IMG/VR virus record: IMGVR_UViG_3300030328_001943
Location: 1 to 54,256 of that record
DNA from: a virus
Length of the DNA: 54,256 bases
Reading direction: 5' to 3' (one strand)
Part shown: in pieces, positions 5,559 to 18,749 of the stretch
How positions within the stretch are numbered: position 1 is the first letter of the stretch
Layout: each line of letters starts with the position of its first letter
Notes under the pieces: model-generated
Database searches by the model: none
The model's input: only the letters and a program-made list of their open reading frames with translations
Told to the model about the DNA's origin: nothing
Translations under genes and position numbers: made by a program

Positions 5559-5571
5559 ATTTTTCTCCTGT

Positions 5572-5730: not shown

Positions 5731-5835
5731 GCTTGTGTTATATGCCTTGCATTTTTTTTAGCGATGGGGGGGTTTTCCATCCCAGCGCGCTCCCTCCGAT
5801 CACCTGCCCAAAAGAATCCTGCTCTTTTGAGTGGA

Positions 5836-5862: not shown

Positions 5863-5896
5863 AATAATTTGACATCAAAGTATGATGTCGATTTAA

Positions 5897-6049: not shown

Positions 6050-6059
6050 GATGTCAACC

Positions 6060-6275
6060 TTAGTTGACATCATCACGAATAGGTAAAAGGTTATTAGGTT
6101 GATTATTGCCTAATGCCTGAGTTTCTTGATTACTAAACAAAGCCATATATTCCTCATAACATATCTGACCATTACGAATTACTGTAATGCCATTTATTAC
6201 AAGTTCCTGACAATTCTCTTCTAAAGCAAGACCAACAACCTGTTCACCTTGCATTATTTGTATATTCAATTTCAT
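6060..6275 (-). CDS. Small hypothetical protein (71 aa)
   Basis: Unknown. The N-terminal half is predicted beta-stranded (KLNIQIMQGEQVVGLALEEN). The C-terminal half is Asn/Gln-rich and likely flexible. The ribosome-binding site is TTGGAGAAAAACT before the ATG. It is preceded by a candidate promoter carrying the TTTAC-N5-GTAAT dyad and by the repeated leader module. It is probably an early host-takeover or regulatory protein by position only. Confidence 0.6.
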   Translation of the reverse strand: MKLNIQIMQGEQVVGLALEENCQELVINGITVIRNGQICYEEYMALFSNQETQALGNNQPNNLLPIRDDVN

Positions 6276-6302: not shown

Positions 6303-6333
6303 AATATAACACGATTTGATTACTATGTGTAAA
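6303..6333 (-). promoter_or_regulatory. Candidate promoter with overlapping operator dyad, 71-aa gene
   Basis: On the minus strand TTTACA (6328-6333) is followed by TATATT (6303-6308). The spacing is 19 bp, or 18 bp if the -10 is taken as TTATAT, and either is longer than ideal. The -35 lies inside TTTAC-ACATA-GTAAT (6319-6333), one of six copies of the TTTAC-N5-GTAAA dyad in the window. Confidence 0.5.
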
Positions 6334-6533
6334 TTAATTTAATTTTATTTTTTAGACCTAAATCTAGCTTGACGACACCCTGGAGTGCGTTTTTTTTGTG
6401 TTAGGTGTGGTTTAGCTTTGCTAACCTAAAGAAAGAAACAACTACATTTGAAATCCCGATCCCGATATTACTCTATTAATAAATAGACTAAAAAGAACAA
6501 AAGTATTAATAGGAGTATATCCACGAGCAGACG

Positions 6534-6552
6534 CCAGCGCGCGCGCTAACTT
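6534..6552. repeat. 19-bp repeat with GCGCGCGC palindrome, copy 1
   Basis: CCAGCGCGCGCGCTAACTT is identical to bases 7879-7897 and contains the 12-bp palindrome AGCGCGCGCGCT. It sits about 75 bp past the end of the 121-aa gene. Such a GC-only block stands out strongly in this AT-rich genome. Confidence 0.9.
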
Positions 6553-6624
6553 TTGTTATGTGTGTGACAAAGGGCCAGGCATCTGGGGCAACTATGAAAC
6601 CCAGAGCCCGACCCGACCCGAGAC

Positions 6625-6990
6625 TTATCTATCACAAAAAATGACATCAAAGCCATAGTATGTTTCAAGATACCAGTCCTGGATTCCCTGAGGAAAGCTA
6701 TAACTATCTGGACAGGATCCCAAAGAATAGCCGACACCCCAGTCATGCGGTCCAGCCTCATATGTAACCCAAATATCTCCCTTATCCACTTCTGAGAATT
6801 TTGAACTATCATCTGACATGCTTACTTCCCATTTAGGATCGTGCCCAGTTCTCCTGGCTTGTTCCTTTAGGGCTATATACAATTGCTTTGCTGCCTCTGC
6901 TTTTGGCACTTTCTGCGTGACAAAATCAGGCAACAGACTTGGATCTAGCTCAAAATAATAATTGAACCCTTTCTCTTTTACATTTGACAT
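6625..6990 (-). CDS. Hypothetical protein (121 aa)
   Basis: Unknown. It is a soluble, acidic, aromatic-rich protein with several Trp residues in the C-terminal half (WVTYEAGPHDWGVGYSLG, IQDWYLETYYGFDVIFCDR), suggesting a compact alpha/beta fold. A strong ribosome-binding site (AAAGGAGAAGTAAT) precedes the ATG, and a candidate promoter with a perfect TTTAC-N5-GTAAA dyad lies 30 bp further upstream. It is transcribed as a single-gene unit. Confidence 0.65.
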   Translation of the reverse strand: MSNVKEKGFNYYFELDPSLLPDFVTQKVPKAEAAKQLYIALKEQARRTGHDPKWEVSMSDDSSKFSEVDKGDIWVTYEAGPHDWGVGYSLGSCPDSYSFPQGIQDWYLETYYGFDVIFCDR

Positions 6991-7019
6991 ATTACTTCTC
7001 CTTTTTTATATGTAAGCTC

Positions 7020-7048
7020 AATATACAGATTATTTTACTGATTGTAAA
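7020..7048 (-). promoter_or_regulatory. Candidate promoter with perfect operator dyad, 121-aa gene
   Basis: On the minus strand TTTACA (7043-7048), a 17-bp spacer and TATATT (7020-7025) form a good sigma70-type promoter. The dyad TTTAC-TGATT-GTAAA (7034-7048, as written on the plus strand) is perfect and covers the -35 box, so a bound repressor would block it. Confidence 0.6.
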
Positions 7049-7290
7049 CCCTTCTTTTAATATTAATTAACGCTGCATTTTTGGCATCTAACGCAGCCGA
7101 AGGGCCTGGATGGAAGCTCAGGTGTTAGGTGTTAACCAAAAAAAATTCAAATCCCAGTCCAGATCCTGAATTTAGATCCCGATTCCCGATTGTTTTTGAT
7201 TTATAGATCTCTTTTAGGCAACAAGAAACTTTCCCCCTGGAAAGAGGGCCAATTTTTTGTGTGAGGTGTTATTTAAAAAATTAGATGACC

Positions 7291-7320
7291 AAAAAAAACG
7301 GGATTGAATATCAATCCCGT
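7291..7320 (-). terminator. Rho-independent terminator after the 78-aa gene
   Basis: ACGGGATTGA (7298-7307), loop ATA, then TCAATCCCGT (7311-7320) give a perfect 10-bp stem. It is followed on the minus strand by seven or eight T residues. It lies 57 bp past the stop of the 78-aa gene. Its stem reuses the CGGGAT word of the repeated intergenic motif. Confidence 0.92.
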
Positions 7321-7376
7321 TTCCCGTTTATTCTATTAGTATGATTAGGACTAACAGTAGTAATATTAAAAACCAT

Positions 7377-7613
7377 TCAAGCATTCATTTTATCTTCCTT
7401 TTTTAGTGGATTTTTTGGAAGTAAAAAATCAGACTTGACTAATTCTTTTAACATTTCTTTTGGTAGATGACTTAATATGTCTAATGCTACATCAATCATA
7501 AATCTATATTCTTCGTAGCTTTTATCCATTCTGCTATATCTACCCATAACTCTATAACCAAGTACGCTAAAATCATCTAGCTTGATTGAAGTTAATTTTT
7601 TATTTTTAGACAT
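7377..7613 (-). CDS. Small hypothetical protein (78 aa)
   Basis: Unknown. It is a Lys-rich, helical protein with a middle segment of alternating aromatic and charged residues (RMDKSYEEYRFMIDVAL) and the hydrophobic helix DILSHLPKEMLKELV. It overlaps the end of the 60-aa gene by 8 bases, so the two are coupled. A strong terminator follows. By position it belongs to the early leftward small-gene set. Confidence 0.6.
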   Translation of the reverse strand: MSKNKKLTSIKLDDFSVLGYRVMGRYSRMDKSYEEYRFMIDVALDILSHLPKEMLKELVKSDFLLPKNPLKKEDKMNA

Positions 7614-7788
7614 ACTTTACTCCTCTATTAAATGAACAATAAAGTCGCCAAGCCTTAACAAGCATTTCTGCTTCTTCTTTAGGTAATTGGAACGCTTCGA
7701 CCAAAGATTGAGAATAACTCAATACAGTATTTTTTTTAGACGCTTGAAGTTCGTCTAAGAACTCAAAATACACAGTTTCATTTTTCAT
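7606..7788 (-). CDS. Small hypothetical protein (60 aa)
   Basis: Unknown. It is a mainly helical protein (FQLPKEEAEMLVKAWRLY) with a good ribosome-binding site (AAAGGAGAAGTAT before ATG). It is the first gene of a two-gene unit with the 78-aa gene. It is driven by a near-consensus promoter with an overlapping operator dyad, and the R3 copy of the repeated leader module lies upstream. Confidence 0.6.
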   Translation of the reverse strand: MKNETVYFEFLDELQASKKNTVLSYSQSLVEAFQLPKEEAEMLVKAWRLYCSFNRGVKYV

Positions 7789-7817
7789 ATACTTCTCCTT
7801 TATTAATATGAACCTTG

Positions 7818-7845
7818 ATTATAACAAATGAATACTAAGTGTAAA
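7818..7845 (-). promoter_or_regulatory. Strong sigma70-type promoter with operator, 60-aa/78-aa unit
   Basis: On the minus strand TTTACA (7840-7845), a 16-bp spacer and a consensus TATAAT (7818-7823) lie 30 bp before the start codon. The operator-like dyad (7831-7845) is degenerate in one arm (GTATT). Confidence 0.7.
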
Positions 7846-7878
7846 CCTTTTTTTTATAGTTGACACAACGCAGTTTTA

Positions 7879-7897
7879 CCAGCGCGCGCGCTAACTT
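7879..7897. repeat. 19-bp repeat with GCGCGCGC palindrome, copy 2
   Basis: Identical to 6534-6552. This copy lies just upstream of the leftward promoter of the 60-aa gene. Shorter relatives of the palindrome are at 8002-8011 and 5784-5791, and a GCGCGCG run overlaps the -35 of the terS promoter near 10804-10809. Confidence 0.9.
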
Positions 7898-8180
7898 GGT
7901 CTTAGGTGTAAATTTCTACCAGAAACCTAGCTTCTAAATAATAAATAATACAAACCCCGATCCCGTTTTACTCTTGACATACTTGACAGGCAGGAGATCC
8001 CAGCGCGCGCTCCATCCAGCTCTATAGTGTTATAAAAAAATTTTTAACCACCTGGTTTTTTACTATAAACAGTCCCGTTCCCGTCCCGATTACCTGAAGT
8101 GCCAGGAGGGCCCTCTGGATCTCCTGAGTGATGTGTATGTGTTAAAGTATACATATGGTTCAAAATAGCAAAAAAGCTAT

Positions 8181-8195
8181 CCCGTCCCGTCCCGT
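8181..8195. repeat. Triple tandem CCCGT repeat
   Basis: Three perfect tandem copies of a five-base unit lie 90 bp from a related triple array (8073-8090). Both are in the divergent control region. They may be protein-binding iterons or part of the wider CCCGAT motif family. Confidence 0.7.
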
Positions 8196-8317
8196 TTGAA
8201 TTTATATTGGCAGACCGACCGAGGGACAAAGAAAATGCTAATAATCTCACCCCCCTATGAAAATAATATTATTTACAATATTTTATAGATACTAATAGTA
8301 ATCTCCATAAAAGTATG

Positions 8318-8337
8318 TATAATTTACATATAGTAAT
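8318..8337 (+). promoter_or_regulatory. Candidate -10 box and operator of the rightward small-gene operon
   Basis: TATAAT (8318-8323) has no clear -35. It is followed at once by TTTAC-ATATA-GTAAT (8323-8337), which differs by one base from the copy at 6319-6333. A repressor bound here would sit on the transcription start. Confidence 0.5.
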
Positions 8338-8354
8338 CATTAACAGGAGAAATA

Positions 8355-8771
8355 ATGAAATACAAATTGAAAGAAAATAATAAATTTACGCATATCAGGA
8401 AGAACACTTTTGATATACCAACAGGGCCGTTAGATAGTCCTATAACGAACGGACATGAACTCTACGAGTTTCTTATGAGTATAGCTAACAAAGAACGCTA
8501 TCAGTTCAAAGGAAGAGGTAGAGGTAGCCGTAAGAAATACGGAACTGTTAGAGATCTACCAATAGAATACGCTGAAAAAATAGCACTCTATCACTCTACT
8601 AGAGATCATATTGCTTACAAAGAAATACAAGAATTAGAAAGATCTAACTCAGCTTGGAAGATTAGCTGTCAGTTAGAAAATGTTATGTCAGCGATTGAAG
8701 ATCATAACGCAGAGTTTAATAACGATTTAGAAGTAGAATTTAGCAACAAGGAGGAGTTATGCCAAGAGTAA
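8355..8771 (+). CDS. Hypothetical protein (138 aa), first gene of rightward operon
   Basis: Unknown. It is a charged soluble protein with a basic Gly/Arg patch near residues 50-60 (RYQFKGRGRGSRKKYG) that could bind nucleic acid or be flexible, followed by helical segments with an acidic end. A good ribosome-binding site (CAGGAGAAATA) precedes the ATG. The stop overlaps the next gene by 13 bases. It heads an operon of small unknown genes, likely early expressed. Confidence 0.65.
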   Translation: MKYKLKENNKFTHIRKNTFDIPTGPLDSPITNGHELYEFLMSIANKERYQFKGRGRGSRKKYGTVRDLPIEYAEKIALYHSTRDHIAYKEIQELERSNSAWKISCQLENVMSAIEDHNAEFNNDLEVEFSNKEELCQE

Positions 8772-8995
8772 AACATCTAACCAGAGGAACGACTATAGAA
8801 CTTACAGCAGAGGAATCTCATAAGTTTATAGATCTAATTAATGAACTTGATAATACTTTATTTACAGTTTATGAAATACAAGATTTATATTTATCAGACA
8901 TACAAAAATTAAATGATTTAAAGCTTCATTTAATTAGGTTGTTTAATTTAGATTATGACAGGGACGACCGCAGATATATTAAGGAGAAAAAATAA
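8759..8995 (+). CDS. Small hypothetical protein (78 aa)
   Basis: Unknown. It is helical with a Leu/Asp-rich middle (HKFIDLINELDNTLFTVYEI) and a charged tail (DYDRDDRRYIKEKK). A strong ribosome-binding site (AAGGAGGAGTT) lies inside the upstream gene. Its stop shares a base with the next start. Confidence 0.6.
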   Translation: MPRVKHLTRGTTIELTAEESHKFIDLINELDNTLFTVYEIQDLYLSDIQKLNDLKLHLIRLFNLDYDRDDRRYIKEKK

Positions 8996-9384
8996 TGTCT
9001 ACATATTACAGACCAAGCACACCAATACCATTAGATGATATTAAGAACAACAAGAGTCTTAAACTACAAGGCTTTAAAGTGGTTCAAGAAGATGGAGAAC
9101 AATATTTTTATTGTGATTCATATTTACATTTTAGTACAGACAACAAAAATAATGTGATAGATCTATACAGATACAACAGCAATAATGCTGATGATGTATT
9201 AGAGCCGTTGTCTATAGAGTTTGGAGTAGATTTCATTAGTGAGTATGAGGACGAATACCAGGATCTAGCAAGTCCAGATACACCTGTAATGACTTTTAGT
9301 TGGGAGAGCCTAGCAGAGCAAGGCCATTCACCTAAGATGATTGAAAGTACTTTAGCAGAACAAGGAAATGAAAATGAAATATGA
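8995..9384 (+). CDS. Hypothetical acidic protein (129 aa)
   Basis: Unknown. It is acidic, with many Asp, Glu, Asn and Tyr residues (EYEDEYQDLASPD), and probably an alpha/beta soluble protein. The ribosome-binding site AAGGAG is 8 nt from the ATG. Such acidic early phage proteins are sometimes DNA mimics or host inhibitors, but nothing in the sequence proves it here. Confidence 0.6.
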   Translation: MSTYYRPSTPIPLDDIKNNKSLKLQGFKVVQEDGEQYFYCDSYLHFSTDNKNNVIDLYRYNSNNADDVLEPLSIEFGVDFISEYEDEYQDLASPDTPVMTFSWESLAEQGHSPKMIESTLAEQGNENEI

Positions 9385-9559
9385 AGTTAAGACCGACCCC
9401 AGATATTGGGATTGTGATTGCGATAATAAATACATACATCTTAAAACAGACAAATTGTCTTGTTCTATATGTGGAATGACTGAAGATGAGTGTTCGGATT
9501 CAAGACCGAATGAAATTAAATTGTATTATACAAATTATAAGGAAAACCAAGATGGATAA
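9374..9559 (+). CDS. Small zinc-finger-like protein (61 aa)
   Basis: It has the Cys pattern C-D-C (DCDCDNKYIH) followed about 15 residues on by CSICG, with further Cys and His nearby, suggesting a small zinc ribbon. I prefer the second of two in-frame ATGs because AAGGA lies about 7 nt before it, while the first ATG (9368) touches the ribosome-binding site. It overlaps its upstream neighbour by 11 bases. Target unknown. Confidence 0.55.
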   Translation: MKYEVKTDPRYWDCDCDNKYIHLKTDKLSCSICGMTEDECSDSRPNEIKLYYTNYKENQDG

Positions 9560-9776
9560 AGATAAACAGAAAAGGTTAAAAAAACTTTGGTGGTCCTTGT
9601 TTGAACTAACAAGCGAACTAGGAGATTTAAATTCTAGGGACGTGGTTCATTTAGGTATCTCATTCTTTGGAACAGTAGGAATTGATTGTGCACCTACAGA
9701 ACAAGAAGGCAAAGAATACATGATAGACATAATTAATAATTTGGAATTTAAAAAAAGGAGTGCAGATGAAAGTTGA
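9552..9776 (+). CDS. Small hypothetical protein (74 aa)
   Basis: Unknown. It begins MDKDKQKRLKKLWW, a basic amphipathic helix, followed by helical and Gly-containing segments. The frame is open further upstream, but the ATG at 9552 has AAGGA about 10 nt before it and overlaps the previous stop by 8 bases, the usual arrangement in this operon. Confidence 0.55.
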   Translation: MDKDKQKRLKKLWWSLFELTSELGDLNSRDVVHLGISFFGTVGIDCAPTEQEGKEYMIDIINNLEFKKRSADES

Positions 9777-9921
9777 AAAACTTATAAAAATTCTACAAAA
9801 GTTTAATCCTAAAGATGAAGTAATTTTCTATCACTTAAAAAACTACAATCTAAAAGGTTGTCAGTTAGAAACTGTTATAGAAACTGAGTTAGGTGTTGAA
9901 CTAACAGTAGAGGATAACTAA
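9766..9921 (+). CDS. Small hypothetical protein (51 aa)
   Basis: The frame starts MKVEKLIKILQKFNPKDEV. That opening (hydrophobic helix, then NPKDEV before a beta strand) matches a common class of tiny phage proteins with an L-x-x-L...DP-x-x-EV pattern. The ribosome-binding site is AAAGGAGTGCAG directly before the ATG, and the start overlaps the previous gene by 11 bases. Function unknown. Confidence 0.65.
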   Translation: MKVEKLIKILQKFNPKDEVIFYHLKNYNLKGCQLETVIETELGVELTVEDN

Positions 9922-9922
9922 G

Positions 9923-9982
9923 ATGCTTGAAGTATTAGTTGCTATAATTGTCTTATCAGCTTTAGCTTCATTTAGAGATTAG
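9923..9982 (+). CDS. Possible 19-aa membrane peptide
   Basis: The frame MLEVLVAIIVLSALASFRD starts 2 bases after the previous stop and encodes one short hydrophobic helix. There is no clear ribosome-binding site apart from weak purines in the preceding gene. It may be a real membrane micropeptide or chance. Confidence 0.25.
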   Translation: MLEVLVAIIVLSALASFRD

Positions 9983-9989
9983 TTTTTGC

Positions 9990-10170
9990 TGGGTGGAGGT
10001 ATGTATATTTATACTTCTCCAAAACTCTGCTTGGCAAGTGACTCTTTGATAGTTTGAGTCGTTAATCCAAAACTATCACTTAAACAAAGTGGTGCTGACG
10101 AGATTCACGAGGTCAGTTAAATGATGACTTGTTAAATACTCCAGCCACACCTTTTACTGGAGTTATTTAT
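9990..10170 (+). ncRNA. Candidate structured non-coding RNA or structured 3' end
   Basis: Between the last rightward gene and the convergent terS lies a stretch with no frame but several hairpins. They are GGAGGTAT/ATACTTCTCC (9995-10020), GATAGTTT/AAACTATC (10048-10055 with 10070-10077), CTGAC/GTCAG (10095-10099 with 10112-10116) and ACTCCAG/CTGGAGT (10138-10144 with 10157-10163). A competing GACTC/GAGTC pair spans part of the second stem, so two folds are possible. The last hairpin has only a weak T tract. It matches no RNA class I know. Confidence 0.4.
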
Positions 10171-10180
10171 GGAATGGTTT

Positions 10181-10732
10181 TTATTTTTCTGCGTTATCGC
10201 TTTGTTGATTGTCGAGTAAAGGATCTTCTGGCTTTACTTCAATAGTTTGTCCTAATAACTGTGCTAACCTTTTCTCTACTTCTTCCCTAGACATTTGATC
10301 TATTGTCCCGTATTTAACTTCTTTGCGATCCACAACCAGGCCTCCAACCTTCAAGAGCATACCCTGGGCTGCAACAGCAGCGTTATAACTGCCGTTCTCT
10401 AAGGCTTTATCCCGTATGGTATACAAATCTTGGACAGCCCGATCATAATTGAGTTCATACTTCTTTTTAACTTCATTCATTAAATGATGATATTCAGATC
10501 TAACGAGTGGATTCATCATTAACTTATTAGCTTGTTGGCGTGGATCTTTGTACCCAGCCTTACTTGCAGCTTCAATCAAGCTTTCGCGTGGATTATTAAC
10601 TGCGTTCCAGATAAACAAGTGTTGCCTACGATTCAGGCGTTTATCAAGTGTAAAATATTCTATTGGGGGATCATCAGTATCTTTGATGATGGGATTATAT
10701 ACTAGCTTTTCGTCAGCGACTCTTGGTTTCAT
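10181..10732 (-). CDS. terS: Terminase small subunit
   Basis: This is the DNA-recognition subunit of the packaging machine. The N-terminal part has the family pattern: RRQHLFIWNAVNN, then EAASKAGYK, QANKLMMNP and a following helix. This is the helix-turn-helix region of Terminase_2-type small subunits, which have tandem-repeat-like winged elements. A long charged helix and an acidic tail follow. At 183 aa the size is normal. It is unusual in lying about 9 kb from terL, in another transcription unit, with its own promoter (TTGACG/TATCAT) upstream. Confidence 0.85.
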   Translation of the reverse strand: MKPRVADEKLVYNPIIKDTDDPPIEYFTLDKRLNRRQHLFIWNAVNNPRESLIEAASKAGYKDPRQQANKLMMNPLVRSEYHHLMNEVKKKYELNYDRAVQDLYTIRDKALENGSYNAAVAAQGMLLKVGGLVVDRKEVKYGTIDQMSREEVEKRLAQLLGQTIEVKPEDPLLDNQQSDNAEK

Positions 10733-10956
10733 AAGTACTTATAAATATTACCTTACCCTACCAATCCTTATAGTATTACCGAGATGATAGCATCTGAGCT
10801 GAGCGCGCGTCAATATATTTTTTATAAATATATGTATGTTTTATTTATTACTCTGACAAAAATGACAAAAATAAAAAAATCCCGAAACCCCCGTGTTTAT
10901 AAGGTTTTCTTGCGTCATGACACTTATGACAATAATACGACAATAATAATTTATGT
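10733..10956. other. Non-coding leader and promoter region of terS
   Basis: This AT-rich gap has no gene. On the minus strand it contains CCCGAAACCCCCGT (10881-10894, relative of the CCCGAT motifs), a GCGCGCG run (about 10804-10809) and a good promoter. A hydrophobic plus-strand frame crossing this gap has no ribosome-binding site and is not credible. Confidence 0.55.
10784..10813 (-). promoter_or_regulatory. Sigma70-type promoter of terS
   Basis: On the minus strand TTGACG (10808-10813), an 18-bp spacer and TATCAT (10784-10789) lie about 50 bp before the terS ATG. The -35 is fused to a GCGCGC block, like the GC palindromes found near other promoters here. Confidence 0.55.
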
Positions 10957-11229
10957 TTATTTTGTTTTAACTTTGCCATTTTTATGAACATCATAAACTC
11001 TTTTATGAAAATATTTTATAAACTCACAAACTTCATTAGCTTTATAGCAAGCTTCTTTGTGTTCAAGTTCTAAACTAAAATAAACTGTTAATGCTGTGTG
11101 TCCAATGTCTTTTAAAGGCAGATTATATGAATCAAGTCTATTCATCATTTGTTTTAAAGATTCTTTTTTAATATCATCTTTACTCTTCATTCTCCCTTTT
11201 AAAATATCTATACCTTTTTTATGTGCCAT
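10957..11229 (-). CDS. Small hypothetical protein (90 aa)
   Basis: Unknown. It is Lys-rich and helical, with a central hydrophobic part (LPLKDIGHTALTVYFSLELE) and a Cys/Tyr-containing region (EACYKANEVCEFIKYFHKRVYD). GGAG lies 10 nt before the start codon, and the gene begins 4 bases after the stop of the SET-domain gene. Last gene of its leftward unit. Confidence 0.6.
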   Translation of the reverse strand: MAHKKGIDILKGRMKSKDDIKKESLKQMMNRLDSYNLPLKDIGHTALTVYFSLELEHKEACYKANEVCEFIKYFHKRVYDVHKNGKVKTK

Positions 11230-11233
11230 GTTC

Positions 11234-11563
11234 TCAAGACTCCGTAAGACTATATTTTAGCGTTAATTCTTCACCTGATTTAACTTTTACAGTAGTAACT
11301 AAATCGTACATATCCATCTCTAAGAATGTATTAACTTTTTTCACTAAAACACAATTTGGTTTATCCGAGTGGTTGATAAAACCGCCTAATGGCATACGGA
11401 TTAAATTAAGGTGAGTTTTTGCTCTATTAGATCTTATATGCGATATACCTAAATTAGTGTTGCCTGTTATATCTTCAACTGCAAATAGACCCAAACCCTC
11501 TATATCACTAGGCTGTATTGTTAAACAGTCTGGTAAGGGCCTATAACTAAATTTATCACTCAT
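11234..11563 (-). CDS. SET-domain protein (putative lysine methyltransferase)
   Basis: SET enzymes move a methyl group from S-adenosylmethionine to lysine side chains. This 109-aa protein shows the SET order: N-terminal IEGLGLFAVEDI (G-x-G-L-F-A), then GGFINHSDKPNC (the NHS-x-x-PN cofactor and knot motif) and GEELTLKY (the G-E-E-L-x-x-x-Y catalytic end). I chose the ATG at 11563 because it overlaps the previous stop as ATGAGTGA; an upstream frame extension adds 13 unlikely residues. It is short for the family but holds all core motifs. The substrate could be a host or phage protein. Confidence 0.8.
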   Translation of the reverse strand: MSDKFSYRPLPDCLTIQPSDIEGLGLFAVEDITGNTNLGISHIRSNRAKTHLNLIRMPLGGFINHSDKPNCVLVKKVNTFLEMDMYDLVTTVKVKSGEELTLKYSLTES

Positions 11564-11747
11564 ATTTACCGCTAATGCCATGAAACTCGTCCCACATATC
11601 ATTTAGGTTGTCTAAATAGAATGATGATTCATATTGCGAACTTATCTTTATTAGATTGTTCTTGAACTCATTAACAGTCTCGGCACCCTCTATAGCTATC
11701 TCACAATCACTTTCAAACTGAATTAATAGATCTTTTAGTCTTGACAT
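11556..11747 (-). CDS. Small hypothetical protein (63 aa)
   Basis: Unknown. It is an acidic helical protein (MSRLKDLLIQFESDCEIAIE and a C-terminal NLNDMWDEFHG). The ribosome-binding site AAAAGGAGTATTT lies before the ATG. It overlaps both the 62-aa gene upstream and the SET gene downstream, so translation of all three is likely coupled. Confidence 0.6.
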   Translation of the reverse strand: MSRLKDLLIQFESDCEIAIEGAETVNEFKNNLIKISSQYESSFYLDNLNDMWDEFHGISGKYE

Positions 11748-11923
11748 AAATACTCCTTTTTCTTTTTTTTGTAATCTTTAATTATCCATTCAATTTGTAT
11801 GGCTAGAGATCTCATACCTAAAGCATGATCGCTTTCTCTATCGTCCTCATGATCGGTGTCAATAAGAACAGTGTTAGTTAACTGTTTGATCTCTTCAATG
11901 CACTCAGTTTCCAAATCCCTCAT
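11735..11923 (-). CDS. Small hypothetical protein (62 aa)
   Basis: Unknown. The pattern resembles small phage proteins of the form ECIEEIKQL...DHALGMRSLAIQIEWIIKDY, with an acidic His/Asp loop (DTDHEDDRESDHALG) that could bind metal, and a Lys-rich tail. A good ribosome-binding site (AAAAGGAGTATAAC) precedes the start. Confidence 0.6.
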   Translation of the reverse strand: MRDLETECIEEIKQLTNTVLIDTDHEDDRESDHALGMRSLAIQIEWIIKDYKKKKKEYLCQD

Positions 11924-11940
11924 GTTATACTCCTTTTAAG

Positions 11941-11967
11941 CAAGGGAGTTCTAGCCAGGCCCCCTTG
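11941..11967. promoter_or_regulatory. Hairpin in the leader of the 62-aa gene
   Basis: CAAGGG (11941-11946) pairs with CCCTTG (11962-11967), with GC-rich sequence inside the 15-nt loop. It sits between the 73-aa and 62-aa genes, about 10 nt before the ribosome-binding site. It may moderate read-through or translation. Confidence 0.4.
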
Positions 11968-11980
11968 ATCCTGATAGATG

Positions 11981-12202
11981 TCAATATGTACGGAGAGCAG
12001 TACTAACATCACTAGATAAGCCAAGATCATGTAAAAACATCAGAACATCAGTTCTGGGATCCTCACACTCTACTCCCACAAAACTTTTGTAATACTTTCT
12101 GTAATTATAAGTCAGCTCATCTAGATCTCCAAACCCGTCCATACACGCATTTTTAAAGGCATTATTAATATTTAATCTAAATTGTTCTTCCTTATCATAC
12201 AT
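11981..12202 (-). CDS. Small hypothetical protein (73 aa)
   Basis: Unknown. It is an acidic, helical protein with aromatic pairs (NYRKYYKSFVG) and a hydrophobic C-terminal helix (RTDVLMFLHDLGLSSDVSTALRTY). Its ribosome-binding site is weak (GAGAT). First gene of the leftward unit that ends with the 90-aa gene, divergent from the exonuclease operon. Confidence 0.55.
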   Translation of the reverse strand: MYDKEEQFRLNINNAFKNACMDGFGDLDELTYNYRKYYKSFVGVECEDPRTDVLMFLHDLGLSSDVSTALRTY

Positions 12203-12277
12203 AATTTAATCTCGTTGTAGTAGACATATTATATGAAACTCTTTACAATTACAAACTATATATATAAGGAGTAGTTT

Positions 12278-12424
12278 ATGTCTGAAGAAAAATCAGATTT
12301 CGACTGGGAAAAAGAGCAGAAAAAAGATTATAACTTTATAGTCATATCTGAATTTATCTCTATCGTCGAAGAAATTAGTAAAATAATTAATCGTAAAAAC
12401 GAGGAGAAAAAAGATGGAAAATAA
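12278..12424 (+). CDS. Small hypothetical protein (48 aa)
   Basis: The frame runs from MSEEKSDFDWEKEQKK to NRKNEEKKDGK, with a hydrophobic middle (YNFIVISEFISIVEEISKII) that looks like an amphipathic helix. The ribosome-binding site TAAGGAGTAGTTT precedes the ATG. Its end overlaps the exonuclease start by 11 bases, which supports it as a real first gene of the rightward replication operon. Function unknown. Confidence 0.6.
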   Translation: MSEEKSDFDWEKEQKKDYNFIVISEFISIVEEISKIINRKNEEKKDGK

Positions 12425-13301
12425 AGAGCTACCACAAGATCTAGCAGAACAACGCCAAATAATTATGGGTGATGCTTTCTACCTGCCTGGTATAAGTAAT
12501 AATGATTATCATGCTTCATCAGGCGTATCATCATCAATTATCAGAAAGTTTGGCAGAAGTCAGCTTCATGCTTTGCGAGAAGAAGTAGAAAAAACACCAG
12601 CTTTACGCTTTGGATCCGCAGCCCACTCTTATATTGTTGAGGGAGAAAATGTATTTAACAATGAAGTGGCTTGCATCAGTGGATCTCCCTATACCAACGC
12701 TAACAAACAATTGCGCGCTGACTATGAGGCTAGAGGCTTAACAGTAATAACCGTTGAAGAAAGAGATAGGATTATTGATATGAGTAATTCTCTTTTACCA
12801 GAGGCATATAAGATGTTGAACCCTGACGAGGGTGATTATCCAGGTGCATTTGAATCACCATATGAGCAAGCAATATATTGGTATGAAAAAGGATTATTGT
12901 TAAAAGTCAAATCTGATGTCATACGCAAGCCTTTGAATCATCCGCACGCATCTAACTCAGTTATCTTAATTGATTATAAAACTACGGCTGATTGTTCTCC
13001 TAAGGGGTTTACCAGTTCAATTTATAAGTTTGACTATCACCTGCAAGCTGCTTGGTATAAGAGAGCTTACGAGAGAGCTGGTCTTAAAGTTGAAGGTTTT
13101 GCTTTTGTTGCTCAAGAAAAGAAAATACCTTACGCATCTAAAATATTTTGGATTAGTAATGCAGATATGGATAAAGGTTGGGTTTATTTGGATAGATTGA
13201 TTACTGAATACAAATCAGTAGTAAATGGAGCAAGTCCAACAATCTACAACACGCCACATCAAGTCAATATAGATATAGTATGGAGAAAAGAAAATGGATA
13301 A
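12414..13301 (+). CDS. PD-(D/E)XK exonuclease, Exo VIII/DUF3799 type
   Basis: This is probably a 5'-3' exonuclease that makes single strands for recombination. The N terminus has the family opening YHASSGVSSSIIRKFG, then the conserved ALRFGSAAHSYIVEG near residues 63-77. The catalytic core follows as KVKSDVIRK (Asp), ILIDYKTTA (Asp-x-Lys) and a YHLQAAWYKRAYE helix. The 295-aa length is normal for this family. A ribosome-binding site (GAGGAGAAAA) lies in the preceding small gene. Its likely partners, a Sak4-like ATPase and a DUF669 protein, are on the opposite strand 2 kb away. Confidence 0.85.
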   Translation: MENKELPQDLAEQRQIIMGDAFYLPGISNNDYHASSGVSSSIIRKFGRSQLHALREEVEKTPALRFGSAAHSYIVEGENVFNNEVACISGSPYTNANKQLRADYEARGLTVITVEERDRIIDMSNSLLPEAYKMLNPDEGDYPGAFESPYEQAIYWYEKGLLLKVKSDVIRKPLNHPHASNSVILIDYKTTADCSPKGFTSSIYKFDYHLQAAWYKRAYERAGLKVEGFAFVAQEKKIPYASKIFWISNADMDKGWVYLDRLITEYKSVVNGASPTIYNTPHQVNIDIVWRKENG

Positions 13302-13518
13302 AGATAACGCTGTTTATACGCCACCACACTATACTCAAGGTGAGATAGAGTTTATACAAGCTATGAGATCTATGCTTACGCCAGAAGAGTTTAAAGGTTT
13401 TTGCAAAGGTAATGCCGTTAAATATATCTGGCGTGAAGCACATAAGGGTAAAAGCAAGCAAGATTTAGAAAAGGCCGTTGTATATCTTAACTGGGCTATT
13501 AATCAAATGGAGTATTAG
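13294..13518 (+). CDS. DUF3310 (SaV-like) protein
   Basis: This 74-aa protein has the whole family pattern: PPHYTQGEIEFIQAM, then EEFKGFCKGNAVKYIWR, then KSKQDLEKAVVYLNWAI. DUF3310 proteins are common in tailed phages near nucleotide and replication genes; some appear fused to nucleotide-metabolism domains. Their biochemical role is not settled. It overlaps the exonuclease by 8 bases, with GGAGAAAAGAAA as the ribosome-binding site. Confidence 0.9.
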   Translation: MDKDNAVYTPPHYTQGEIEFIQAMRSMLTPEEFKGFCKGNAVKYIWREAHKGKSKQDLEKAVVYLNWAINQMEY

Positions 13519-13519
13519 A

Positions 13520-13768
13520 ATGAAAGAGATTGAACAAATTAAAATGCGTAAAGATATTGAGGTTTTAAAAGATAAATACAATATAAGAATACTTAGTCTT
13601 GCAAAAAAAATGGGTTTACGTGAAGTTAATCTTAGAAATTTTATGGATGGTAGAAAACTTATTGACAGAAATCATGAGATAGTAAAACAAGGATTACTGG
13701 ATGTTATGCAAGAAATTAAAGAAGCTAAAGAATATAAAGGCTTTGACCAAGGAGAAAATAATGTCTGA
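13520..13768 (+). CDS. Small HTH-like protein (82 aa)
   Basis: The middle part, RILSLAKKMGLREVNLRNF followed by MDGRKLI, has the spacing of a Cro-type helix-turn-helix, so it may bind DNA as a small regulator. The N- and C-terminal helices are Lys/Glu-rich. I chose the ATG at 13520 because GGAG lies 7 nt before it and it starts directly after the DUF3310 stop; the frame is open a little further upstream. Confidence 0.55.
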   Translation: MKEIEQIKMRKDIEVLKDKYNIRILSLAKKMGLREVNLRNFMDGRKLIDRNHEIVKQGLLDVMQEIKEAKEYKGFDQGENNV

Positions 13769-13916
13769 AAAAGAAGATAACAACATACCAACAATACAGA
13801 GGAACTTTGCAGATGATTTTATAACTATATCTTATCCAAATGGTAAGGTGATAAAATCTTATATTGATGGTAGAAAAAAAGATGTAATTATATTTGAGGG
13901 AGAAAATGATGATTGA
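13761..13916 (+). CDS. Small hypothetical protein (51 aa)
   Basis: Unknown. It begins MSEKEDNNIPTIQRNF and has a beta-like core (DFITISYPNGKVIKSYIDG) with an acidic end. The ribosome-binding site is AAGGAGAAAATA. It overlaps both neighbours by a few bases in the usual coupled way. The frame upstream of this ATG overlaps another gene and lacks a ribosome-binding site. Confidence 0.6.
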   Translation: MSEKEDNNIPTIQRNFADDFITISYPNGKVIKSYIDGRKKDVIIFEGENDD

Positions 13917-14040
13917 TGTTTTAATATGGTTATTTGTAATCTTTTTAGTCTGGAATGTGCTGGCAATGTCTTTAGTTTATACTCGTAGATGGGTAGATAG
14001 AAATAAACAAGATATAGTTAAGTGCAAATGGACAAAGTAA
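13906..14040 (+). CDS. Small single-span membrane protein (44 aa)
   Basis: The frame starts MMIDVLIWLFVIFLVWNVLA and gives one clear transmembrane helix, followed by a basic tail (RRWVDRNKQDIVKCKWTK) that would be cytoplasmic. The ribosome-binding site is GAGGGAGAAA. It overlaps the 51-aa gene upstream by 11 bases and the PAPS-reductase-like gene downstream by 13, so it is well embedded in the operon. Role unknown. Confidence 0.6.
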   Translation: MMIDVLIWLFVIFLVWNVLAMSLVYTRRWVDRNKQDIVKCKWTK

Positions 14041-14903
14041 ATCCATACTTCCTAAAAAATCCCTCTTTAATTAGCTTTTCAGGTGGTCGCACATCTGGAT
14101 ATATGCTGTATCAAATACTAAAAGCACATGACGGCAAGTTGCCAGATGATGTCTTTGTTGTGTTTGCTAATACAGGTAAAGAGATGCCTGAAACATTAGA
14201 CTTTATTCAAGAAGTTGGTGATAAGTGGGGCATAGATATTCGCTGGTTAGAATTAGATATACATGATGAAAGGCCTATATTTAGATCTAAAGAAGTAAAT
14301 TATGAAACTGCAAGCAGAAATGGAGAGCCGTTTGAAGCATTAATAGACAGGAAAATGATGCTGCCAAATACAGTTATGCGGATCTGCACAGTTGAAATGA
14401 AAATTAAAGTCCTGGCAAGGTTCATGAGATCTAACGGTTTTAAAGAATGGGATAATGTTGTTGGCCTTAGATATGACGAACCTCATAGGGTAGCAAGAAT
14501 GAAAGCAAACAATGACAAAGATTTAGAGTCTTGGTTTTCATTAGCACCATTATATGATGCCAAAGTGGTTGTTGAAGATGTTTCAGAATTTTGGAACAAA
14601 AGTAATTTTGATTTACAGCTTACAAACTTTAACGGTAAAACCCCTGCAGGCAATTGTGATCTATGTTATTTAAAAGGTGTTGGAACTCTTACAAGAGTTA
14701 TTAAAGAAAAGCCAGAGCTAGCAGATTGGTGGATAGCACAAGAAGAAAAGATAAGAAAACACAAAGAAAAAATGGGCAGTAAATACAACGCCCAATTTAA
14801 AAATAATATTTCTTTTATAGAATTAAAAGAACAAGCTACAGCGCCCAACGTAATGCCAGAACTTTTTCCTGATGATGGAACGAGTTGTTTTTGTACGGAT
14901 TAA
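14028..14903 (+). CDS. PAPS-reductase-like PP-loop enzyme (adenine nucleotide alpha hydrolase)
   Basis: Members activate substrates by adenylation, using a PP-loop ATP site. The SFSGGRTSGYM motif near residues 17-27 is that PP-loop, followed by FANTGKEMPETLDFI, a family hallmark. Cys residues occur as RIC, NCDLCYLKG and CFC, allowing a metal or Fe-S site in the C-terminal half. At 291 aa it fits the phage branch, which is distinct from bacterial sulfate-assimilation CysH and nearer to DndC-like or nucleic-acid-modifying relatives. A GTG two codons upstream is an alternative start. Sulfur metabolism, DNA or RNA thiolation are all possible. Confidence 0.75.
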   Translation: MDKVNPYFLKNPSLISFSGGRTSGYMLYQILKAHDGKLPDDVFVVFANTGKEMPETLDFIQEVGDKWGIDIRWLELDIHDERPIFRSKEVNYETASRNGEPFEALIDRKMMLPNTVMRICTVEMKIKVLARFMRSNGFKEWDNVVGLRYDEPHRVARMKANNDKDLESWFSLAPLYDAKVVVEDVSEFWNKSNFDLQLTNFNGKTPAGNCDLCYLKGVGTLTRVIKEKPELADWWIAQEEKIRKHKEKMGSKYNAQFKNNISFIELKEQATAPNVMPELFPDDGTSCFCTD

Positions 14904-14928
14904 AAAGAGTGGGGCCTTTCAGCCCCAC
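14902..14928 (-). terminator. Terminator of the leftward ATPase/DUF669 unit
   Basis: GTGGGGC (14909-14915) and GCCCCAC (14922-14928) form a 7-bp GC-rich stem. On the minus strand TCTTTTTAA follows. It lies 12 bp past the DUF669 stop. It may also stabilise the end of the convergent rightward transcript. Confidence 0.88.
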
Positions 14929-14939
14929 CAAGGACACTC

Positions 14940-15425
14940 TTAAAACGATGGCTTATTGCCAACCTTTGGCTTTTCAAGAGCTTTGTAAGTAGGTTCTGCA
15001 GCTGAACTAATTTTAGTTCTATTCTGCTCATCCTTAACAGTCTCACCCAAATTATTAACCCAATCGTTAGGTGCAACATATAAATTAATCATAAGTTCTT
15101 TACCTACAAATTGATTGTATGTAGTTGGAAAACTTGTCATACCTAAAGCTTGAGTAATCATAGTTAAAAAACCATTATTAAGTTTTTTAGTTTCTAGATT
15201 TGGATGCCAAACACTTAAATATTCTCTATAGTTTTTGTATTTACCATTTTCTAGCTCATACACAAACTTTAAGCTTTTGTTTCCATTCTCTTCTTTAATA
15301 TGCTCACTACATTCAATAATTTTAGCTTTAACATATCCATCTGGAGCAACAGTTTTTTTTGGCTCTTGCTCCGCCTCAGGCATATCTTTTGGATCTACCC
15401 AATCTATTCCTTCAAAATCAGACAC
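14940..15425 (-). CDS. DUF669 family protein (putative single-strand-binding partner)
   Basis: The sequence begins VSDFEGIDWVDPKDMPEAEQ, the typical start of DUF669 proteins, and continues with a beta-rich core (GYVKAKIIECSEHI, KSLKFVYELENGKYKNYREY, then WHPNLETKKLNNGFL). DUF669 proteins sit beside phage recombinases and probably act in single-strand DNA metabolism. I take the GTG at 15425 as the start: AGGAGG lies 6 nt before it, inside the end of the ATPase gene, while the upstream ATG gives 13 non-family residues. The resulting 161 aa is normal. Confidence 0.8.
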   Translation of the reverse strand: MSDFEGIDWVDPKDMPEAEQEPKKTVAPDGYVKAKIIECSEHIKEENGNKSLKFVYELENGKYKNYREYLSVWHPNLETKKLNNGFLTMITQALGMTSFPTTYNQFVGKELMINLYVAPNDWVNNLGETVKDEQNRTKISSAAEPTYKALEKPKVGNKPSF

Positions 15426-16164
15426 TATGCACCTCCTGTTCATTATCTGACTGTTCAACAACATTTAACGTATTATCGTTAAATCCCAATTTAGCTATGA
15501 TGTCTGTAGCATTAGTTGGTTCATAAGTCTCCAACTTGCCACTTCTATCTTTCGCAGTAAAACCATCATGTGTACTGGTCTGCAGCCACCTAGTGTAAAC
15601 AGGCTCATCATTCTCACCTTGTTCTTCAGCAACTCTTAAAACCAAGACTTCATCAAATAAATACATGATTTCTTGACCGAGTTTGGTCCCTACCATGAGT
15701 GGTTCATAAATCATAGTATTGTCTACATTTTGTTTGCTCATTTTTGCAAGGAACAAAACGTGCATATGCAGATCTCTGTAAGATCTCATAACATTTACTA
15801 CAGATGATTTAACTAAACCATATGCTTTTCTAGGATCTTTATGTCTTGCAAGCTCAGCTTCTAGCATTACTTCACTAATCTCTGATATTGAATCAAGACA
15901 TACAGTATCATATTCTAAGCTACCATTCTTAAGTTGATCATGAATTTCCATAACTTCATGAGCTTCCTTAACTTCGATAGCATCAACATTTTTGCTGTCT
16001 TTAATGGAAAGCAGTCCAGCCTCTGCACTAATCATTAAGATTTTACCAGGAGCGGTAGAACATAGTGTTGTTTTACCAGATCCTGCCTCCCCATATACTA
16101 AAATCTTAGCGCCCTGATTATCAACTAATTCGCTAGGGCTAACGATACGGTTTTTTATATTCAT
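15418..16164 (-). CDS. AAA ATPase, Sak4-like recombination protein
   Basis: This RecA-like P-loop protein of 248 aa has Walker A VYGEAGSGKTTLCSTAPG near residues 24-41, a following ISAEAGLLSI strand and Walker B YDTVCLDSISEISE near residues 80-95. This matches AAA_24-type phage ATPases, several of which are single-strand annealing or recombination proteins (Sak4 group). The ribosome-binding site AAGGAGTAAAT precedes the ATG. Its promoter carries two operator dyads shared with the divergent HTH gene. It acts with DUF669 and the DUF3799 exonuclease in recombination-dependent replication. Confidence 0.8.
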   Translation of the reverse strand: MNIKNRIVSPSELVDNQGAKILVYGEAGSGKTTLCSTAPGKILMISAEAGLLSIKDSKNVDAIEVKEAHEVMEIHDQLKNGSLEYDTVCLDSISEISEVMLEAELARHKDPRKAYGLVKSSVVNVMRSYRDLHMHVLFLAKMSKQNVDNTMIYEPLMVGTKLGQEIMYLFDEVLVLRVAEEQGENDEPVYTRWLQTSTHDGFTAKDRSGKLETYEPTNATDIIAKLGFNDNTLNVVEQSDNEQEVHSV

Positions 16165-16190
16165 ATTTACTCCTTAAATATATTTGATTT

Positions 16191-16241
16191 ATCCTAACAT
16201 ATCATTTACTATGTGTAAAACATTTATTTAGAATGTGTAAA
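16191..16241. promoter_or_regulatory. Divergent promoters with tandem operator dyads (switch region)
   Basis: Two dyads, TTTAC-TATGT-GTAAA (16205-16219) and TTTAG-AATGT-GTAAA (16227-16241), start exactly 22 bp apart. On the minus strand TTTACA (16214-16219), a 17-bp spacer and TAGGAT (16191-16196) would drive the ATPase. On the plus strand TTTACT (16205-16210), an 18-bp spacer and TAGAAT (16229-16234) would drive the HTH gene. Both promoters lie under the dyads, so one bound protein could control both directions. Confidence 0.6.
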
Positions 16242-16265: not shown

Positions 16266-16625
16266 ATGACAAAAAAAACAAGTTGGATTGACGAAATGCA
16301 GAACAAAAATTATTGGATGGCTGATTATTTCCATATCCAAAAAGTATTGGCAAGCAAACAAATTAAATTGCTTGATGCAATCAACATTAAACCAACATTA
16401 AAGGAAAGACAAGTGAAAAGAATAACATTAAAAGATTGGATTGAATTTCTTGGTATGCCAAAAGCTGCTAAGGAATGTAATGTATCAGAGGCCACTATAA
16501 AAGCCTGGCGATATGGTTACAGACAACCTTCAATTGAAAAAGCAAAAGAAATTATCGTGGCTTCAGAGGGGAGACTGGATTACGAATCTATCTTCGGTGA
16601 AATAAAAGATTTTGTTGAAATTTAA
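16266..16625 (+). CDS. HTH DNA-binding regulator (119 aa)
   Basis: The C-terminal half carries a helix-turn-helix, AAKECNVSEATIKAWRYG followed by RQPSIEKAKEIIVAS, of the YdaS/Cro-like type. This makes it the best candidate for binding the operator dyads next to its own promoter. I chose the ATG at 16266 because the earlier in-frame ATG (16233) overlaps the proposed -10 box. The ribosome-binding site is weak. The N-terminal 60 residues are helical and unknown. It precedes the primase gene by 3 bases, so repression would also tune replication. Confidence 0.7.
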   Translation: MTKKTSWIDEMQNKNYWMADYFHIQKVLASKQIKLLDAINIKPTLKERQVKRITLKDWIEFLGMPKAAKECNVSEATIKAWRYGYRQPSIEKAKEIIVASEGRLDYESIFGEIKDFVEI

Positions 16626-16628
16626 TAA

Positions 16629-18749
16629 ATGTTTCAGCTTAATGTTGATGAACATGATTCATCACACGACTTAGCGCTTGCATATTTTGATAACGGTTAT
16701 AACGTAGTACCTCTTCAAAGGTCCGATAAAAAACCACCGTCTTTTTTTAAAGGTTGGGAACAATATAAAACTACGCGGCCTGAAAGAAGTGAAGTATCTA
16801 GCTGGTTTCAAAATAGAGACAATCTTTCAGTTGCTATAGTTTGTGGTTCATTTTTAGTTGTAGATGCTGACAGCCCAGAGTCAATGACTTGGGTTGAAGA
16901 AAACTTACCTATTACTCCTGTTAAAGTTTTAACAGGTAAAGGTATGCACTTTTATTACAATAATCCACAAAACTATACAACATTTGCCACTAGACGTACT
17001 GACGAGACACCTAGCGAGCGCTTAATAGATATTAGGGGCGTAGGTGGTCTTATTATTGCACCTTTCAATAGACACGCTAATGGACAGATCTATAAGTTAA
17101 AAACCATTCCTGAATGGGATGTTATGGACCATAACGATTTACCTGATTTTACAGAGGTAGAATGGAAAAAAGTAACAGGCGTTTCAAATACTATTTCAAA
17201 TAACTCTACAGCGCCATTTGCATTAGACGGCGTTAATGAAGGTAGCCGTAATGATAGTGCAGCAAGACTAGCAGGCTATCTTATATCTAAAAATGTTAAC
17301 CAAGATTTTATTAAGTTTTTTATGCACTCTTGGAATGATCAAAATAAACCCCCTTTACCTCAAAAAGAAGTTGAAAGTGTTGTAGATAATGTAAAGAAAA
17401 CTCATGATAGAAAAAATGCAGTTGCTCCATTATTTGTTAAAGAACAAGACAACATAAGCCGTCCTAAAAACTTATTTAATCCACCAGGATTACTTAAAGA
17501 TATGTTTGATTTCTGTGAGTCTTTAGCTCAGGTTCCACAACCAGAACTATCCGTTGTTGCAGCTTTGTCATTAGCTAGTGTTAGTTGTGGCAGATTATAT
17601 AGAACTGAAATGAATAATTATTCAAGTTTATATTTTATGTGTGTAGCTAAATCAGGCCAAGGTAAAGAAAACATAAAAACATTTGTTGAGACAGTTTTAA
17701 ACGAAAGCAAACATAAAGATCTTGTCGTAGGAGATGGCTATACATCTAGTGGTGCTGTTCATTCGGTTTTACAAGTAAGACCAACGCAGATCACCATTAT
17801 GGATGAGTTTGGTAAAAGATTAGAGTCGATTAGCCATCAATCAAACTCTAACAGAGAAGATGGCATACAAACTCTTATGGAAGCTTGGGGAAGATGTCAC
17901 GGTGTTTTAAGAGCAGACAACTATTCTTTAATGGGTGTGCCAGATGATGTAAAAGAAAAGATGATGAACAGACAAACTTTAAAACCAGCTATTACCCTGG
18001 TTGGCTTATCAGTTCCAAAGAACTTCTACAAAGCTTTACATAGTGGCCGTATAGCAGACGGTTTCTTAAATAGGTTTATGGTTATTGAATCAAAAGAACC
18101 CAGACGAGTAGCAGGCTTAAAGAAGTGGACAAAGCCACCAGTCACAATAGTCAATTGGATAAACATGATACGTTCATCTCGTTTTCAAACTGACGAATTG
18201 GGACAAAATAATTCTCAATTAAATCCTGCTCAAAATGTTTTAACTTTTGATAATCATGCTAAAGACATGTTGCAAGAGTTTGCAAAAGAAATAGTTCAAA
18301 GACAAGACATACTTGAAAAAGAAAATTTAGAACCGTTGCTTTCAAGATCTAGAGAAAAAGCTATGCGTCTATCTCTAATTTGTGCATTAGCGACAGATGT
18401 AAAAGCTAAGGTCATTAATGGAGATGCTATGCGGTGGGCAATAGACTACGTTAAATACTACGATCTTATGTTTATAGAAGCTTGTAGAGACAAGGTTGCT
18501 AGTTCTGCAACTGAATCAAGAATCAAACAAGTTTTATCATTTATTAGATCTAGAGGTGGCGAGGGTATATCTAAACGAGAAGTTGATCGACATGAATTAT
18601 TTAGAAGTATGAAGTCTTATGAAGTCAAAGAGATTATTGAAAGGCTTACTAATGCAAGAGAGATACAAGAGATTGATGTCAAAGTAGGTGGTAAAGGTAG
18701 ACCAACCAAAAGATATGTAGCAATAGATCCAACATTTTACGAGGAGTAA
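16629..18749 (+). CDS. PrimPol-helicase fusion (bifunctional primase/polymerase with DUF3987-like ATPase)
   Basis: This probably makes primers and unwinds the template. Residues about 10-175 form a Prim-Pol domain: YNVVPLQRSDKKPP, the catalytic VVDADS, TGKGMHFYY with the catalytic His, and DIRGVGGLIIAPF. Residues about 205-260 (NEGSRNDSAARLAGYLI and following helices) match a PriCT domain. From about residue 290 a DUF3987-like ATPase follows, with Walker A AKSGQGKEN near 340 and Walker B TIMDEFG near 388. No separate DNA polymerase is found, so a host polymerase, or the PrimPol itself, must extend. Confidence 0.85.
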   Translation: MFQLNVDEHDSSHDLALAYFDNGYNVVPLQRSDKKPPSFFKGWEQYKTTRPERSEVSSWFQNRDNLSVAIVCGSFLVVDADSPESMTWVEENLPITPVKVLTGKGMHFYYNNPQNYTTFATRRTDETPSERLIDIRGVGGLIIAPFNRHANGQIYKLKTIPEWDVMDHNDLPDFTEVEWKKVTGVSNTISNNSTAPFALDGVNEGSRNDSAARLAGYLISKNVNQDFIKFFMHSWNDQNKPPLPQKEVESVVDNVKKTHDRKNAVAPLFVKEQDNISRPKNLFNPPGLLKDMFDFCESLAQVPQPELSVVAALSLASVSCGRLYRTEMNNYSSLYFMCVAKSGQGKENIKTFVETVLNESKHKDLVVGDGYTSSGAVHSVLQVRPTQITIMDEFGKRLESISHQSNSNREDGIQTLMEAWGRCHGVLRADNYSLMGVPDDVKEKMMNRQTLKPAITLVGLSVPKNFYKALHSGRIADGFLNRFMVIESKEPRRVAGLKKWTKPPVTIVNWINMIRSSRFQTDELGQNNSQLNPAQNVLTFDNHAKDMLQEFAKEIVQRQDILEKENLEPLLSRSREKAMRLSLICALATDVKAKVINGDAMRWAIDYVKYYDLMFIEACRDKVASSATESRIKQVLSFIRSRGGEGISKREVDRHELFRSMKSYEVKEIIERLTNAREIQEIDVKVGGKGRPTKRYVAIDPTFYEE

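Follow-up and report, generated by a model that had tools for sequence, protein, structure and literature searches.

The early region of the phage genome IMGVR_UViG_3300030328_001943 (IMG/VR) carries several copies of a short inverted repeat in its intergenic gaps, which raises the question of whether these are operators read by a single regulator and, if so, which protein reads them. We refer to the whole stretch of DNA that was analysed, 54,256 bases, as the window; its ends share a repeat of 102 bases with one mismatch, so that it is probably a complete circular phage assembly. Its structural genes are akin to those of the pelagiphages HTVC023P and HTVC027P and of the roseophages CRP-901/902, and a DNA-level search among cultured phages returned no match. 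The reading we arrived at, to which we assign a probability of about 0.8 on the basis of sequence, is that a Cro/XRE-like, autoregulated repressor would, as it accumulates, shut down the early, recombination and replication promoters along with its own. The predicted sites are as follows, with ranks taken from the weight matrix described below.

6319..6333, minus strand: predicted operator at the gene 6060-6275 promoter; reads TTTACACATAGTAAT in promoter sense; matrix rank 2
7034..7048, minus strand: predicted operator at the promoter of 6625-6990; perfect dyad; TTTACA as -35, 17 bp, TATATT
7831..7845, minus strand: predicted operator at the promoter of 7606-7788 and 7377-7613; TTTACA as -35, 16 bp, TATAAT with extended -10
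8288..8302, plus strand: predicted operator, the seventh and a weaker one; GATACTAATAGTAAT; precedes the 8323 site by 35 bp
8323..8337, plus strand: predicted operator at the promoter of operon 8355-9921; right after a TATAAT box; matrix rank 3
16205..16219, no strand assigned: predicted operator in the HTH/Sak4 gap; spans the leftward Sak4 -35 and the rightward HTH -10; matrix rank 1
16227..16241, no strand assigned: predicted second operator of a tandem pair, 22 bp from the 16205 site; matrix rank 4

The genes lying under these sites are the following.

6060..6275, minus strand: early gene under the 6319 site; no PHROG match
6625..6990, minus strand: early gene under the 7034 site; unrelated phages have homologs without the site
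7377..7788, minus strand: pair of small early genes under the 7831 site
8355..9921, plus strand: operon of small early genes, read rightward from under the 8288/8323 pair
14940..15464, minus strand: ssDNA-binding protein, second gene of the leftward unit with Sak4; phrog_378, 5e-9
15418..16164, minus strand: Sak4-like recombinase, first gene of the leftward unit; phrog_124, 2e-47
16266..16625, plus strand: XRE/Cro-like HTH protein of 119 aa, the proposed repressor; phrog_35 transcriptional repressor, 6e-9
16629..18749, plus strand: primase-polymerase/helicase downstream of the HTH gene; Prim-Pol 1.4e-19, phrog_3022 1e-84

The initial annotation had listed six dyads of the form TTTAC-N5-GTAAA, at 6319-6333, 7034-7048, 7831-7845, 8323-8337, 16205-16219 and 16227-16241. 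All six were found there, both arms were perfect in the two copies described as such (7034-7048 and 16205-16219), and the weaker site at 8288-8302 came in addition to those first listed. As first written, the dyad is weakly informative on its own: with up to two mismatches allowed, the window contained 65 matches versus 62.0 ± 7.9 expected, which is no enrichment. With at most one mismatch there were 12 matches versus about 5 expected, and 5 of these 12 fell in non-coding DNA, which makes up 5% of the window (p = 2e-4), a result that is suggestive only.

A search with the HTH protein identified 44 related loci in IMG/VR, and in all relatives with readable upstream DNA (48–95% amino acid identity) a site lay just before the HTH start, with no more than two arm mismatches. 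We trained a weight matrix only on these HTH-upstream sites of the relatives and then ran it over the window, where the six sites ranked 1, 2, 3, 4, 5 and 8. For a stricter test, we masked the HTH promoter and trained without any member of the subgroup to which the tested genome belongs, with 300 column-permuted matrices serving as the control. Under these settings the window gave four gap matches outside the HTH promoter versus 0.30 expected, a count reached by 0/300 permuted matrices, and four coding matches versus 4.2 expected. The distant relatives that we call group G likewise carried 4–5 further sites in early gaps (leave-group-out gap matches: G001, 5 versus 0.37 expected; G002, 4 versus 0.37; G015, 4 versus 0.20). 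Equal motif density inside coding DNA had been named beforehand as an outcome that would count against an operator family; the scan instead showed an excess in gaps, with coding matches at chance in all genomes tested. Two coding look-alikes, at 10640 and 31383, scored as high as the weaker true sites; the one at 10640 is destroyed in a relative with a 98%-identical terS protein, and we took it to be a chance match.

Across 31 sites, the motif in promoter sense could be refined to TTTACA-N-ATAGTA-A-W. Positions 1, 4, 5, 12 and 13 were invariant, the AGTA at positions 10–13 was kept in 25–31 of the 31 sites per position, and position 7 alone was free. The five-base spacer, initially written as unconstrained, is therefore constrained, since ATA is conserved at motif positions 8–10.

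Where the sites lie also called for some revision. The term "phage-wide" proved too strong, given that the sites are confined to 6.3–8.3 kb and 16.2 kb, and the rightward exonuclease/PAPS-reductase cluster at 12.3–14.9 kb has no site. The late operon, on the other hand, was rightly described as free of sites, the best matrix score in its 5540-6070 gap being 6.0. Five transcription units had been proposed; there are indeed five gaps, but six promoters are served once the rightward HTH-primase promoter is included. Rfam matches in the gaps all fell far below gathering scores.

At the level of single promoters, we observed two placements of the motif. In one, TTTACA is the -35 box and the -10 box follows 16–17 bp on, as at 7034, 7831, 16205 and most group G sites. 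This bore out the earlier statement that four sites use TTTACA as the -35 of a leftward promoter, a candidate -35 being present at 6319, 7034, 7831 and 16205. The promoter at 7034 scored 10 of 12 and that at 7831 scored 11 of 12, while the leftward Sak4 promoter reads TTTACA, 17 bp, TAGGAT. The 6319 site shares this placement with a less regular spacer: its leftward promoter reads TTTACA, spacer 19, TATATT, or alternatively TACACA-17-TATATT with an extended -10, so that the spacer is poor at 19, or 17 if TACACA is taken. As a separate observation, the matrix fits the 7034 site better when that site is read in reverse.

In the other placement, the operator directly follows TATAAT and covers the start site, as seen at 8323 and in G001 (47915), G002 (34740) and G015 (7430). 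This agrees with the single site that had been assigned to a rightward start, 8323 lying directly 3′ of a rightward TATAAT box, with the ATG at 8355 about 18 bases further on. Here a helper site lies 35 bp upstream, at 8288 in the window and at 34705 in G002, where the 35-bp pair 34705/34740 thus recurs; in the window, 8288 and 8323 form a direct repeat, D11, at a spacing of 35. Between the HTH and Sak4 genes, one half of the site covers the leftward -35 and the other half is a rightward -10 of the form TACNAT, and in several relatives TTGAYW lies about 17–18 bp upstream of TACNAT. In the window the rightward HTH promoter reads TTGATT, 17 bp, TACTAT. The second site of the tandem, 16227-16241, may hold a rightward TAGAAT -10, and the pair 16205/16227 is conserved in the related loci L003 and L005.

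Absence of the motif from the same gaps in relatives had likewise been named as evidence that would speak against the proposal, and the close relative 3300030106_001972 (L119/L082/L131) retains the sites. This contig is collinear with the window at 6–9 kb and carries sites at all four positions, with base changes mostly in the middle of the motif. The 6319 site has the counterpart TTTACATATAGTAGA in L119, the 7034 site is unchanged in every letter in L119/L082, the 8288 site corresponds to GCTACATATAGTAAT in L082, and the 8323 site corresponds to TTTACAATTAGTAAT; at 7831, TTTACACTTAGTATT in the window becomes TTTACAAAAAGTAAT, with the arms kept and the spacer changed. The two gaps that we aligned are 88–91% identical overall, which makes this test modest by itself.

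We also scanned IMG/VR with two patterns composed of operator plus promoter letters and holding no protein information. Contigs of this phage group made up 10/15 and 32/69 of those recovered, versus 0/4 and 0/22 (0/26 together) with letter-reversed control patterns; ordinary sigma-70 promoters probably account for the leftover matches to the -35-type pattern. The blind scans also caught HTH homologs beyond those listed by the protein search (48–57% identity; for example L152, L176 and L185), again with the site upstream. Conversely, phages without the 16266-type HTH gene lack the sites, both in the HTH/Sak4 gap of CRP-901 and at the homologs of gene 6625-6990, which at 31 other loci have no site in the promoter region, indicating that the site does not travel with that gene. 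Together, the linkage to the HTH gene, the additional early-gap sites and the retention in the same gaps strongly support the proposal of one operator family on early and replication promoters.

The HTH gene beside the tandem pair had been put forward as the candidate binder, and both its invariable accompaniment by the site in readable relatives and its nearly invariant recognition stretch support this. The HTH_3 profile scored 20.6 bits on the protein (cut-off 23; E 4.7e-4), PF09048, the lambda Cro family, scored 16.1 bits, below its curated cut-off of 32.7, and the best PDB sequence match was lambda Cro (E 0.055). An AF2 model (pLDDT 78) has a long N-terminal helix followed by a five-helix HTH domain; the helices at 55–110 reach a block pLDDT of about 87–94 and match XRE-type folds in Foldseek, the closest being YdaS and other XRE/Cro proteins, with none reaching E 0.001. 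Across relatives the stretch SIKAWRYGYR.PSI, which is the recognition helix and following turn of an XRE/Cro-type fold, is nearly invariant while the remainder drifts. Such a pairing of a conserved recognition helix with a conserved operator next to its gene would be expected of an autoregulator. When searched for in bacterial genomes, the protein was found on a single phage-sized contig binned as Gammaproteobacteria TMED104; we judged one binned contig too weak for a host call.

We propose that a dimer of the HTH protein would bind the pseudo-palindrome TTTACA-N-ATAGTAA(A/T) and block host sigma-70 RNA polymerase, either by covering a -35 box that forms one half of the operator (at 6319, 7034, 7831 and 16205) or by sitting on the start site with the help of the site 35 bp upstream (8288/8323). 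The 16205/16227 pair would cover the back-to-back promoters of the Sak4-SSB unit and the HTH-primase unit, and with one pair on both divergent promoters the HTH protein would also limit its own synthesis. On phage entry no repressor would be present, and strong host-type promoters would drive the early genes; accumulating HTH protein would then turn down transcription of its own gene and of the early, recombination and replication genes, as lambda Cro does. For the HTH protein we infer binding, dimerisation, the sign of its action (repression) and timing, repression as such from where the sites are placed. Neither a CI gene nor, in the window or in the four long relatives G001–G004, an integrase (PF00589) was found, and the loop looks like the timing and dosage control of a lytic phage.

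Several other readings of the motif were weighed. Because TTTACA is also a -35 box, some of the motif conservation is promoter conservation, and it is conceivable, if improbable, that the motif is nothing other than a recurring strong sigma-70 -35 with a favourable spacer, that two promoters simply overlap at the HTH gene, and that there is no repressor. TTTACA does serve as the -35 at most sites, with TATAAT-like boxes 16–17 bp on, and the left half at the HTH promoters can act as a rightward -10 (TACNAT). Yet the AGTA at positions 10–13 has no known sigma-70 role at sites with a leftward promoter only, the motif follows the -10 at 8323 and in G001, G002 and G015, where a -35 role is impossible, and it tracks the HTH gene while being missing from the promoter region of the 6625-6990 homologs. 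We rejected promoters of a phage RNA polymerase in view of the early-promoter placement of the sites, the intact sigma-70 boxes and the reported lack of an RNA polymerase in CRP-901-type relatives (PMC10149686); one is present in four related metagenomic genomes (PMC10149686).

If the sites are operators, a protein other than the adjacent HTH gene product might bind them. Host regulators are able to control phage promoters, and the window encodes a second, weak HTH protein at 13520-13768 (HTH_60, E 1.6e-3). We nevertheless rate this as very unlikely, since no homolog of the 13520 protein could be detected in relatives that retain the operator, no second HTH_3 protein was found within the window, and wherever this could be checked the site and the 16266 HTH gene occur together. 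The HTH protein could also bind the sites and act as an activator or dual regulator of the early promoters; the sign of regulation is not readable from sequence, and lambda CI is a single protein that both activates and represses. Activators, however, are usually located upstream of the -35, whereas these sites lie at -35 to -21 or on the start site, positions from which a bound protein obstructs polymerase, and the promoters are already near consensus; we therefore consider it improbable as well. We accordingly retain the autoregulated Cro/XRE-like repressor as our reading.

Early-gene repressors with several operators are classical, as exemplified by lambda Cro and by the dispersed sites of Cluster A phages (PMC9283540). 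The resemblance to lambda Cro and its operators at PL/PR lies in a small HTH protein within the replication module, operators on back-to-back leftward recombination and rightward replication promoters, putative autoregulation and a shared RITLKD...G..K.A motif. In contrast to lambda Cro, the present protein has 119 aa and a long N-terminal helix, its operators are single or double and of 15 bp rather than triplets of 17 bp, further operators lie on accessory early genes 8–10 kb away, and the lack of a detected CI gene or integrase sets the system apart from a lambda-type switch. As in Cluster A mycobacteriophages, one phage repressor would use many short sites spread over the genome. The Cluster A proteins are immunity repressors of temperate phages with asymmetric sites that also stop elongation inside operons (PMC9283540, PMC6550527), whereas the sites here are on promoters and the late region has none. 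We rejected a stoperator reading on these grounds, the sites being confined to early promoters, with coding matches at chance and late gaps without sites.

Among YdaS and P22 Cro-type XRE proteins, the YdaS-type structure 8co2 was the best AF2 fold match (TM 0.70 by target), with only about 24% identity over 68 residues and YdaS residing in a prophage context. CRP-901 (OQ401623; PMC10149686), of a roseophage type reported to lack lysogeny genes, has the same arrangement of an HTH-primase unit divergent from ATP-binding/DUF669 genes (Sak4-like), but its HTH protein is a different one, of 59 aa, and these operators are absent. Early-gene control in this abundant, little-studied marine phage type appears to be undescribed, as we found no description in the open-access literature. 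The circuit is of a known kind; what distinguishes it is a Cro-type loop without a detected lysogeny partner. It would offer an example of a Cro-like repressor retained without lysogeny, a defined regulator and operator that make a testable circuit, and an operator by which early accessory genes can be recognised in fragmentary metagenome contigs.

Hardly any homologs of the window's operator-linked accessory early genes are found in group G, whose early gaps bear operators of their own. This suggests that operator-promoter cassettes may have been added to different accessory genes in each lineage, or kept during gene exchange. Tentatively, at somewhat under even odds, we picture a Cro-only regulon of lytic marine phages in which a self-controlling operator between recombination and replication genes would be ancestral, and cassettes would have spread separately in at least two lineages (the window group and group G) to unrelated accessory early genes. 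If true, this would place new host-takeover genes under a single timing loop. The wide regulon does not extend to all relatives: beyond the HTH-promoter site, no further strong gap matches were seen in subgroups B, C, E and F, group E having a single additional weak site.

The AT-rich early gaps of the window are interspersed, between 5782 and 8190, with G+C-rich repeat islands, many of which are kept in the collinear relative L131 (contig 3300030106_001972). One repeat, CCAGCGCGCGC, is present in four copies in these gaps, CCCGATCCCG and TCCCGTCCCG are further island strings there, and comparison of the islands with Rfam returned no fitting family. The islands and other features of the window are as follows.

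5571-5643: perfect 14-bp inverted repeat, arms TAAAAAGGGTACGA / TCGTACCCTTTTTA separated by 45 bp, upstream of the leftward gene 5259-5558
5782, 6455, 6534, 7879, 7956, 8000, 8074 and 8180: G+C-rich islands in early gaps
5843-5862, leftward: terminator-like hairpin
13520-13768: small protein with a weak HTH_60 match (E 1.6e-3)
14022-14903: PAPS-reductase-like gene within the recombination/replication region
50259-50720: GroES-like co-chaperonin within the structural module

The small protein at 13520-13768, for which no homolog was found among the relatives searched, is a possible second regulator. In roseophage CRP-901 (OQ401623), the gap between the gene for its own, different HTH protein and the divergent gene holds a long inverted repeat, ATCTTTACAG...CTGTAAAGAT (5777-5808 of locus L078), which is a candidate operator for that protein. 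The operator weight matrix also matched three sites in each of two IMG/VR contigs outside the group, L144 and L168; a search of both records for an HTH homolog found none, and these matches are either fortuitous or due to some other system that uses a similar site.

CRP-901-type genomes are likewise reported to carry a GroES-like co-chaperonin (PMC10149686). Finally, positions 1-102 of the window recur at 54155-54256 with one mismatch, and because of this 102-base end repeat the assembly is probably circular or circularly permuted.
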